From positions 1 through 36,785 of IMG/VR virus record IMGVR_UViG_3300046386_000084: a stretch of 36,785 nt of DNA. One strand, 5' to 3'. Every line of letters begins with the position of its first letter. Positions within the stretch are counted from its first letter, which is position 1. Below are positions 4,831 through 26,885 of this stretch, piece by piece. The translations under genes and the position numbers were made by a program. Under the pieces are notes generated by a model that worked only from the letters and a program-made list of their open reading frames with translations, was not told where the DNA came from and made no database searches. Source of the stretch: a virus.

Positions 4831-5274
4831 TTATTCACCGAACTTTTCAACTTTTTTAAACACTGCAACAACTCGCTTACCTGCAGGATTATCAAAAGTA
4901 TCAATGACCTTACCGTTGACTACAGCAAGTGCATGACCTGTGACGTTTACGATGTATTCACCAAAGGCAAGCTTAGGTAGCAACTTACCCAGTGTAATAC
5001 CCTCTTTAGCTTCACGCTTGGTAAAACGAGCTACATAAAGAGCTTGACATGTAGTACCATGTACAGATTCAACTACAAAACCAGCTTCAGCATAAGCTTT
5101 GTGCATTGTACCAAACTTTGCACCGCAGTGCTTCTTACGACCGTGTTTACTCAAAAGATTATGAGCATCAAAATAGTCAATGCCACCTGCATTTGCCAAT
5201 GCACGAACTGTGCAGTCGTTTTTCTCTAGACCACCTGCAGTTGCACCACGAGTAAAAGATTGGATTGTCTTCAT
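4831..5274 (-). CDS. Papain-like cysteine hydrolase domain protein
   Basis: This 147-aa protein carries a plausible papain-fold triad. NDC21 opens a helix (CTVRALANAG), GHALAVVNG supplies His114, and VIDTFDNPAG supplies Asp125 or Asn129. Phage and plasmid proteins with this layout are annotated as papain-like or C39-like, with unknown substrates. Neither a signal peptide nor a membrane segment is seen, so it should act in the cytoplasm, perhaps on a host protein. It has its own promoter (TGCTATAAT) and an ACTGGAG ribosome site. The fold is an inference from motif order only. Confidence 0.65.
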   Translation of the reverse strand: MKTIQSFTRGATAGGLEKNDCTVRALANAGGIDYFDAHNLLSKHGRKKHCGAKFGTMHKAYAEAGFVVESVHGTTCQALYVARFTKREAKEGITLGKLLPKLAFGEYIVNVTGHALAVVNGKVIDTFDNPAGKRVVAVFKKVEKFGE

Positions 5275-24134: not shown

Positions 24135-24304
24135 GTTATGAGTACAAGTACAATAAAGAACACAGTACTCTAGAACAGTACAAAGATGGTATGCTCAGGG
24201 CTTGTATGCAAATGCCACAATGTGATCTAAACGAATTAGCTAGGTTGAACATCAAAGAAAATATTTTGCGAAATGTTGACACAAAGTTGAAAACTGATGT
24301 ATAA
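24131..24304 (+). CDS. Small hypothetical protein
   Basis: This 57-aa ORF begins MSYEYKYNKEHSTLEQYK and ends VDTKLKTDV. Its last 30 bases contain a consensus promoter for the tRNA gene: TTGACA lies within the VDT codons and the TAA stop is part of the TATAAT. AAGGAATATTTTGGAG lies upstream. No family is recognised. Confidence 0.65.
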   Translation: MSYEYKYNKEHSTLEQYKDGMLRACMQMPQCDLNELARLNIKENILRNVDTKLKTDV

Positions 24305-24305
24305 T
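24276..24305 (+). promoter_or_regulatory. Consensus sigma70 promoter for tRNA-Arg
   Basis: Perfect TTGACA (24276-24281) and TATAAT (24300-24305) with 18-bp spacing. The predicted start is only a few bases before the tRNA. Host RNA polymerase should use it strongly. Confidence 0.85.
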
Positions 24306-24314
24306 TTAGATTAA

Positions 24315-24391
24315 GCGAGTGTAGCTCAGTTGGATAGAGCACTGGTCTTCTACACCATTGGTCGGGGGTTCGAATCCCTCCACTCGCACCA
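24315..24391 (+). tRNA. tRNA-Arg (UCU)
   Basis: This 77-nt gene has a 7-bp acceptor stem (GCGAGTG with CACTCGC), a D arm GCTCAGTTGGATAGAGC, anticodon loop CTTCTAC with UCU at 34-36, and a T arm with TTCGAAT. ACCA is encoded at the 3' end. The body resembles E. coli tRNA-Arg(UCU). The anticodon stem has a C-T mismatch at its first pair. It would read AGA/AGG, rare in many hosts. Confidence 0.95.
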
Positions 24392-24707
24392 TAAATTAGT
24401 CCCGCCATGCTTGTTGCTCGTATCCCTAGAGTTAGCAGCACACTTCGGTCGAGGTAGGTGAAAGCCCTATCATTAAAAATGCAAGTACTGATGGTGTGGT
24501 ACTGCAGGATTTCCAAGACCAAAGGATTGTCGTCCGGATGTAACAAGACACTATAATACTGGTTTAGGGACCAGAGGTTATAGTTCAGTATATTTCAGGT
24601 TGGGTAAACGAACGTGGTTTACTATTTGGGTTTTATGACGCATGTGAGCTAAAGCATGACGAGGAACTAAGATACGGAATATACTGAACTATAACTAAGG
24701 AGTAGGA
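24392..24707 (+). ncRNA. Structured untranslated region, candidate novel RNA or leader
   Basis: About 315 bases without a convincing gene follow tRNA-Arg and precede a nucleotidyltransferase-like gene. Visible elements are: a GTTGCT/AGCAGC hairpin near 24415-24440; a GGTAGG/CCTATC hairpin near 24455-24471; an AGTAC/GTACT hairpin (24484-24503); and CTGGT/ACCAG (24559-24574) with loop TTAGGG. That hairpin lies inside ACTATAA/TTATAGT (24550-24584). A perfect 18-bp stem (24577-24594 with 24678-24695) encloses GTAAAC/GTTTAC. Loop TAGGGA (24565-24570) can pair with TCCCTA at 24423-24428. Bases 24578-24584 can pair upstream or downstream, so two folds compete next to the ribosome site. A weak TATAAT occurs at 24552-24557. 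I do not match it to a known RNA class. Confidence 0.55.
24577..24695 (+). repeat. 18-bp perfect inverted repeat upstream of 24708
   Basis: GTTATAGTTCAGTATATT (24577-24594) is the exact reverse complement of 24678-24695. An 83-nt interior contains its own hairpin. The right arm ends one base before TAAGGAG, the ribosome site of the next gene. Confidence 0.95.
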
Positions 24708-25520
24708 ATGAAAAATCTATTGATTGGTTCACAAGCATTGCAATACTGGAGTAACACCTTTAAGGTAAGACCAGATGCAGATTGGGATATTATTGGCGAA
24801 CATAAAATCACTGACAATACAAAGCGTGTTGAACATCATACGTTCGATACAATTGGTAACTACGATCTGCTAAACTATGCAAGTACGCACTGGGTTGAAA
24901 TCGCAGGTCAAAGAGTTTATGTGGTTAACCCTATTGGTCTTACCATTGTAAAGCGCAGTCACTTGTGGCGTGATCGTAAGTTTGAAAAGCACATGACACA
25001 ATACAATATGTACTTAAAAGTATTTCGTCCGTTCTTCACTGATAAGGATGAAGATGTGTTAAACAAACGCATCAAGCTTACCATGTCAGCATATCCACAA
25101 GGTAGTCCAAACTTGATGCAAAGTGTAGAAGGATTCTTTGATGATGCAGTAACTAAGAAGTATAATCATGACTACTTGCACGAGTTGTTTGCTTACCATG
25201 AAGAACCCTTGTATAAAAAACTACAAAAAGATTCAAGTTTAGCGTGGTGTGATAAAAAACTGTGGTACAATCTAAGCCATGCAGACAAACTTAGATGCAT
25301 TGCAGAGGAAGCTTATGTTATTTCAACTGAAAGGTTCTTAGTACCTAGCGATTGGAAGACACCAGCTAAACTAGCGTTTTACAAATCAATCAATAAAATT
25401 TGTACTACACTGTGTTCAGGTTGGTTTAGAGACTATACAATTGACAACTATACAGAAGTCTTGGATATGTTTGATGCTGCTAAGTTTGAAAATGTTAAAC
25501 AAATTTTACTAAAGGAGTAA
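24708..25520 (+). CDS. Nucleotidyltransferase-like phage protein
   Basis: This 270-aa protein begins with LLIGSQALQYW followed 12 residues later by RPDADWDIIG. The order GS...W...DxDxxI is that of the Pol-beta/MNT nucleotidyltransferase fold, in which two Asp bind metal. The rest is helical (for example GSPNLMQSVEGFFDDAV). Similar phage proteins are known but, as far as I recall, uncharacterised. The substrate could be a tRNA or other RNA, or a protein. It follows a structured untranslated region and lies between two tRNA genes. The ATG follows AAGGAGTAGGA. The fold assignment rests on one motif region. Confidence 0.75.
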   Translation: MKNLLIGSQALQYWSNTFKVRPDADWDIIGEHKITDNTKRVEHHTFDTIGNYDLLNYASTHWVEIAGQRVYVVNPIGLTIVKRSHLWRDRKFEKHMTQYNMYLKVFRPFFTDKDEDVLNKRIKLTMSAYPQGSPNLMQSVEGFFDDAVTKKYNHDYLHELFAYHEEPLYKKLQKDSSLAWCDKKLWYNLSHADKLRCIAEEAYVISTERFLVPSDWKTPAKLAFYKSINKICTTLCSGWFRDYTIDNYTEVLDMFDAAKFENVKQILLKE

Positions 25521-26770: not shown

Positions 26771-26775
26771 AACAC

Positions 26776-26866
26776 GGACATGATGTGTCAATTACCTGAT
26801 GCTGGTATGAAATTCCCTAATAGCATAGGGGGAAGAAGCGGGTTAGATTCCCGTTGTTGTCCACCA
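26776..26866 (+). tRNA. Degenerate or unusual tRNA-like element ending in CCA
   Basis: This 91-nt element opens with GGACA and closes with TGTCC-ACCA. It has a good T arm (GCGGG-TTAGATT-CCCGT) and a long variable-arm-like hairpin (CCCTA...TAGGG). A TACC-TGATGCT-GGTA hairpin occupies the anticodon position. A normal D arm is missing, U33 is G, and only five acceptor pairs form. It may be a decayed type II tRNA or a tRNA mimic. Confidence 0.45.
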
Positions 26867-26885
26867 AAATAAAGTCAATTAAGTA

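Follow-up and report, generated by a model that had tools for sequence, protein, structure and literature searches.

The window analysed here is the whole 36,785-nt stretch of the IMG/VR virus record IMGVR_UViG_3300046386_000084, and the structured tract occupies positions 24392-24707 of its + strand, on which all the features given below lie. A candidate sigma-70-type promoter, recognised by consensus match alone, was found at 24276-24305 (TTGACA, an 18-nt spacer and TATAAT; 12/12 consensus positions), as the preliminary description had proposed, just 5' of a tRNA-Arg(TCT) gene (24315-24391) that was called by both ARAGORN and the Rfam tRNA model. Promoter-like boxes were also present 5' of the tRNA in two related loci (L004 and L007). 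The CCA end of the tRNA is separated by 3 nt from the modelled RNA, whose core, as delimited by our covariance model R1, spans 24395-24595 and has homologues in 24/25 loci found through the neighbouring protein and in many loci found with DNA patterns. Further downstream, the sequence contains a Shine-Dalgarno motif (AAGGAG, 24698-24703) in front of the next gene (24708-25520), which encodes a DUF7275 protein with a weak DUF7277 N-terminus (Pfam, E 1.4e-54). The 315 bases in between had been described as a structured RNA lacking a credible open reading frame; this observation was borne out and even understated, as the tract corresponds to a folded non-coding RNA that forms a family across phages.

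The computed core of about 200 nt consists of a helix P1 enclosing the hairpins P2, P3 and P4, followed by P5 and P6, plus three long-range pairings (PK1 to PK3). We assessed 46 proposed pairs in A1, a plain MAFFT alignment of 40 divergent homologues that was not fitted to the structure. P1 (24398-24511) joins AGTCC (24398-24402) to GGATT (24507-24511); it was 90% paired in A1, with both-side changes in two columns, and takes the form GAGG/CCTC in subtype II and GAGT/GCTC in one further member (L188). P2 (24409-24439) carries the loop TCCCTA (24423-24428), which is the 5' half of PK1 and invariant in A1, while its stem was assigned by eye in divergent members. The P3 hairpin (GGTAGG/CCTATC, 24453-24471) was 97% paired with both-side changes in 5/6 pairs, and is absent from subtype II. 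P4 (24480-24506), which is supported by the A1 pair counts, exposes the loop GGT (24493-24495; 5' half of PK2), and P5 (GGAT/GTCC, 24524-24535; 97.5% paired) the loop GTC (24529-24531; 5' half of PK3). P6 comprises P6a, for which strand A (24550-24556) provides one side of the alternative helix A:B (85.7% paired; both-side changes in 5/7 columns), and the P6b hairpin (CTGG/CCAG, 24559-24574), whose loop TTTAGGGA contains TAGGGA (24565-24570), the 3' half of PK1. The preliminary description had closed this hairpin with CTGGT/ACCAG around TAGGGA, but those arms would leave TTAGGG as the loop, and the conserved arms are the shorter ones. The A-U step at the start of strand B was invariant (A186 T187 in the A1 alignment).

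PK1 is predicted as a loop-loop kissing pair between L2 (UCCCUA) and L6 (UAGGGA), a complementarity already noticed in the preliminary description. PK3 joins L5 to J5/6 (GAC, 24547-24549) as GUC:GAC, with one compensatory G-C to C-G swap, CUC:GAG, in L018. Both were fully paired in A1 (40/40 for PK1, 100% for PK3), an invariance that is partly a selection effect because the motifs of PK1 or PK3 are part of several patterns with which members were collected; loci L001-L024, found by another route, are free of this effect. PK2 connects the P4 loop with J4/5 (ACC, 24518-24520) and, through its strong compensatory change, is the most telling of the pairings: the P4 loop reads GGU, GGC, UGC, AGU, AGC, CUG or UGU in different members and J4/5 reads its complement, so that 44/50 members matched their own partner when only Watson-Crick pairs were counted, against a mean of 20.5 and a maximum of 31 in 5000 shuffles.

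Strand B (24577-24594) can pair either with A or with A' (24678-24695), as indicated by the inverted match, the stems of the family and folding predictions. Both arrangements had been pointed out before and are present in the sequence: the 18-bp inverted repeat B:A' is perfect, and reaches 21 bp when G.U ends are counted, and the competing 7-bp stem joins 24550-24556 to 24578-24584. Across the family, A lies just 5' of B and forms 4-9 bp with it (the shared part being only about 4 bp in subtype II), and A' lies 3' of an insert and forms mostly 13-24 bp. The long stem was found in most of 62 loci, and perfect 6-bp A:B matches in 26/53 members, where shuffled sequences gave a mean of 4 and a maximum of 12. 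The two helices are mutually exclusive and, by these comparisons, both conserved in most of the family. In the growing transcript of the window, the predicted probability of A:B was 0.99 until A' was made and 0 thereafter, in an energy model that leaves out pseudoknots. With the same restriction, B:A' was predicted at >=0.5 in the full-length RNAs of 33/34 members, and before A' was made A:B reached >=0.5 in 23/34 and was not the favoured helix in 11/34. We also considered that strand A might act in trans on the trailers of other tRNAs; this was dropped after inspection by eye of L180 and L175, where A fits its own B better.

The folding energy of the tract was moderately unusual (z = -2.3), and it is the comparative evidence, rather than this energy, that we consider decisive for a structured RNA. 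Standard pairs occupied 85.7% of the paired cells in A1, compared with 75% for shuffled partners and 37-47% for partners slid by 1-3 columns; 28/46 proposed pairs showed both-side changes, and 0/500 shuffles, which ignore the kinship of the sequences, reached the observed covariation score. The covariation that the preliminary description had named as its check was thus found, in pair counts set against slides and shuffles. Paired columns contained 140 G.U cells and 42 A.C cells, and therefore the + strand is taken as the RNA strand. The earlier statement that the tract holds no credible open reading frame also held across the family, since in any frame no more than 1/40 members stayed open through the core. 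Core lengths were spread evenly over the three classes modulo 3, and these two results together rule out a conserved peptide. Covariation beyond shuffles and slides, closed frames and strand-specific wobble, the general marks of a structured non-coding RNA, were all observed.

The DUF7275 protein search recovered 25 IMG/VR loci, 24 of which (L001-L024) carried the RNA upstream of the gene and one of which (L025) did not, while DNA patterns taken from either half of the RNA recovered many further contigs without a DUF7275 link. In total, the family comprised more than 50 distinct loci; most of them are IMG/VR contigs, and one belongs to the isolate Limnohabitans phage DC31, whose copy (84.5% identity, BLAST) was the sole core match among other GenBank phages; searches of GenBank phages with two divergent cores gave no matches. 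The genome paper of DC31 reports tRNAs, and such an RNA is not mentioned in its available part (PMC12195039). Model R1, which was built from 40 sequences, found one full copy in each of the 28 records searched whole, a second, partial match at a contig end (L174), and seven subtype II members outside the model (E 1e-14 to 1e-25). Scanning 84,980 genomes of bacteria and archaea with patterns gave 19 matches, all judged to be chance or coding on inspection, and an R1 search of 399 bacterial genomes from the order of Zoogloea oleivorans gave none, a weak negative as strict filters left few candidates to be scored. Outside the clade of the window, the RNA sits within tRNA arrays, often 1-7 nt past the CCA of a tRNA, and in many loci another tRNA follows downstream. 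In all, this RNA is carried among the tRNA genes of dozens of phages that differ widely from one another and are for the most part environmental.

At gathering score, Rfam 15 recognised only tRNAs in the window and in 10 divergent loci, with no riboswitch, ribozyme, group I/II intron, RNase P or tmRNA, and a lax scan of the locus (E up to 5) added chance-level matches, with neither GOLLD nor ROOL among them. Together with the covariation, this strongly supports the earlier label of an unassigned structured RNA. We found no description of the family in the main text of openly searchable papers; Fremin and colleagues reportedly catalogued candidate structured RNAs from viruses and phages on a large scale, and the family could be listed there unnamed. 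We regard it as a new family, to be placed among the few highly structured RNAs of phages that occur at tRNA islands.

Positions 24595-24677 hold an exchangeable insert, P7, which in the window is a three-way-junction module (TTTCAGGTTGG..TATTTGGG..CTAAGATACGG) whose edges overlap strands B and A'; elsewhere it is a simple hairpin, another folded domain or, in L018 and L019, a permuted-tRNA-like domain. The three-way-junction module also occurred without the core, directly behind tRNAs (L231-L236, L240 and L244), where the long stem opens with the tRNA's own CCA and closes with UGG. More generally, across the phage arrays surveyed, a hairpin of >=15 bp started at 26/319 tRNA CCA ends compared with 45/2452 other CCA triplets, and 20 of these 26 started exactly at the first C. 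A consensus CCA hairpin (CCATATTNAARCACA..GTGTGYTTNAATATGG) had at least 120 matches in IMG/VR; among the matches listed, we counted 113 distinct hairpins, 52 starting at an ARAGORN tRNA and 6 following an apparent RNA core. The long B:A' stem thus appears to belong to a more widespread element of phages, a long hairpin for which the CCA end of a tRNA is often the exact starting point. Strand B itself opens with CCA in several core members (e.g. GGCG-CCA-TATTG in L071), and therefore the core takes the place of a tRNA before the hairpin. In the clade of the window strand B begins with GGTTATAG, not CCA, so this parallel rests on the family and not on the window alone.

The consensus CCA hairpins measured 59-81 nt and were most often located at tRNA-Glu or tRNA-Lys, their arms being conserved and their loops free to vary; some of them seem to have their own promoter. 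CCA hairpins were seen in L071, L110, L055, L043, L185, L034, L154, L196 and L231-L244, and in at least some 100 other stretches of IMG/VR (from L246 on). In L288, L305 and similar stretches, a recurring CTGGGATTCCCTGGCCAGCAACACTGGC stood 20-45 nt before the hairpin and might represent yet another family of RNAs in these arrays. The P7 insert of L018 and L019 (about 4920-5000) was read by eye as a T arm, a short acceptor hairpin and a D arm, with the long stem replacing the anticodon arm; neither ARAGORN nor the Rfam tRNA model recognised the RNA itself as a tRNA. Within the window we observed a second unassigned RNA, a tRNA-like sequence at 26773-26868, with the acceptor GGACA../..TTGTCC-A-CCA, the T arm GCGGGTTAGATTCCCGT and an oversized anticodon-side hairpin AATTCCCTAATAGCATAGGGGGAAG, which was likewise called by neither program. 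This module recurred just 5' of the RNA in four other loci (L010, L014, L015 and L129), and L003, L005, L019 and L020 had tRNA-like genes 5' of the RNA with enlarged anticodon arms or inserts, none of which ARAGORN called.

Kissing-loop riboswitches such as those for cobalamin and lysine combine a hairpin junction, a loop-loop contact and an alternative pairing downstream; the present RNA differs from them in having no Rfam consensus match, no expression platform and no fixed downstream gene. In its topology, the kissing partner of PK1 lies outside P1 and the core lies upstream of a guide-like strand. Group I/II introns, RNase P, tmRNA and the cobalamin riboswitch were rejected, as no model matched and their topologies do not fit; a likeness to the tRNA-like domain of tmRNA or to permuted tRNAs was confined to the P7 insert of L018/L019, as seen by eye, the core being unrelated, and ARAGORN made no tmRNA call. 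By analogy, the closest kind would be GOLLD and ROOL, which are unrelated in sequence. GOLLD is a non-coding RNA of phages and prophages located near tRNA islands, with an elaborate fold, no known function and a linker that sometimes holds tRNAs, and its profile in that work was taken from Rfam (PMC12286853). The present RNA likewise occurs in phages near tRNA islands and has an intricate fold, but GOLLD often exceeds 800 nt and folds differently, whereas here the core has about 200 nt, with a conserved 5' part and a variable 3' part; the GOLLD covariance model gave no match above its gathering score in the window or in the divergent relatives scanned. ROOL is also a phage RNA often near tRNA islands, with a complex pseudoknotted fold and no known protein partner (PMC12286853). 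The location by tRNA islands and the complex pseudoknots are common to both, but ROOL has about 660 nt, and since the present RNA has no ROOL match in Rfam, there is no sign of common sequence or structure.

Of the three functions that the preliminary description had offered, two depend on the adjacent gene. One was a switch-like leader, in which a riboswitch or attenuator would control the DUF7275 gene in cis through the exchange between A:B and B:A'. The mutually exclusive conserved helices stood up, the kissing-loop architecture recalls some riboswitches, and in the clade of the window the long stem does end, as stated before, next to the ribosome site (2 nt from AAGGAG). However, we found no intrinsic terminator at the long stem, the ribosome site lies free outside it, no open reading frame follows directly in most of the wider family, and the stem inserts are unrelated between phages. 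These observations make it unlikely that the RNA is a genetic switch acting on the gene that follows, and very unlikely that it is a leader of DUF7275 in particular. The idea that the RNA is the partner of the nucleotidyltransferase-like DUF7275 protein fared worse: the tight linkage in 24/25 loci found via the protein speaks for it, but holds only within the clade of the window, outside which tRNAs or other sequence follow the RNA, and the core is missing from both L025 and Curvibacter phage P26059A, which do possess the gene. Loss of the tract from close relatives that retain the flanking genes, which had been named as counting against the RNA, was thus seen in part. The lost linkage disfavours both readings, the partner being hardly credible, and we do not judge the DUF7275 gene to be part of the RNA system. 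At the syntenic site of P26059A (KY981271, 3913-4901; L027), where the core is lacking, long inverted repeats follow one another over an unannotated 1 kb, together with an apparent permuted tRNA with a 7-bp acceptor.

The third function, a processed small RNA, is the best fit given the position of the element within tRNA arrays, often a few bases past a CCA and with a tRNA downstream, although the maturation itself is inferred. Release of a non-coding RNA from the arrays is the best-supported reading and draws on location and structure; in its full form, a stable phage RNA excised from the transcripts of tRNA arrays, for which B:A' would be the precursor hairpin and A:B the closing stem of the mature molecule, we consider it about as probable as all else combined. 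Transcription from the promoter at 24276 would yield the tRNA and the RNA together, the 5' side of the RNA would be freed by tRNA-type processing, and RNase P acting on the following tRNA, where present, would free the other side. During synthesis A:B would form first and A' would then capture B, giving a precursor hairpin of the same kind as the CCA-start hairpins and probably a site of RNase III-type processing. Once this hairpin was cut off, B would return to A and close P6 beneath the PK1 kissing loops, yielding a compact mature RNA, which during infection would most likely affect translation or RNA metabolism in trans as its final role.

Among the readings that keep the RNA but change its function, an oligomeric scaffold, suggested by analogy, is rather unlikely: L2 and L6 would pair between molecules, in the manner of loops in the phi29 packaging RNA or the cages of GOLLD and ROOL, with the variable P7 insert serving as cargo or linker. 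Two invariant and fully complementary 6-nt loops, the variable inserts (including tRNA-like ones) and the genomic niche common with GOLLD and ROOL (PMC12286853) are consistent with it, but the core is far shorter than either, and PK1 is equally possible within one molecule, so that sequence fits both arrangements. It is somewhat less probable that the core is an RNA machine, ribozyme or scaffold, that helps to mature or organise the RNAs of the array together with a widespread, hitherto undescribed system of CCA hairpins on tRNAs and other array RNAs, cleavage of the hairpin switching B from A' to A. A self-processing ribozyme, in which the multi-pseudoknot core sets A on B by the CCA-like junction so as to cleave or ligate at that point, seems improbable; it would account for the three tertiary pairings, for the invariant A-U step and for A staying complementary to B despite the better partner A', but no Rfam ribozyme model matched and the same hairpin occurs on other RNAs that lack the core. 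The DNA itself, as a recombination or insertion hot spot with palindromes that matter as DNA, could explain why long-stem inserts are swapped, why two stand in tandem in L149 and why tRNAs were inserted beside remnants of old arms in L022. The excess of G.U on the + strand and the covarying pseudoknots point to an RNA rather than a DNA feature, which makes this reading highly doubtful, and we retain the release of a stable non-coding RNA as the preferred one.

RNAs as complex as this one have rarely been described in phages, and the known ones, GOLLD and ROOL, are without established function. The present family is smaller than both and offers three predicted long-range pairings with comparative support, and since the isolate DC31, with its cultured host Limnohabitans sp. 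DCL3, carries the RNA, tests of expression, structure and knock-out are feasible. Phage tRNA arrays are usually annotated for their tRNAs alone; the CCA-anchored hairpins suggest a common rule for the way in which phages arrange and process the RNAs of these arrays.
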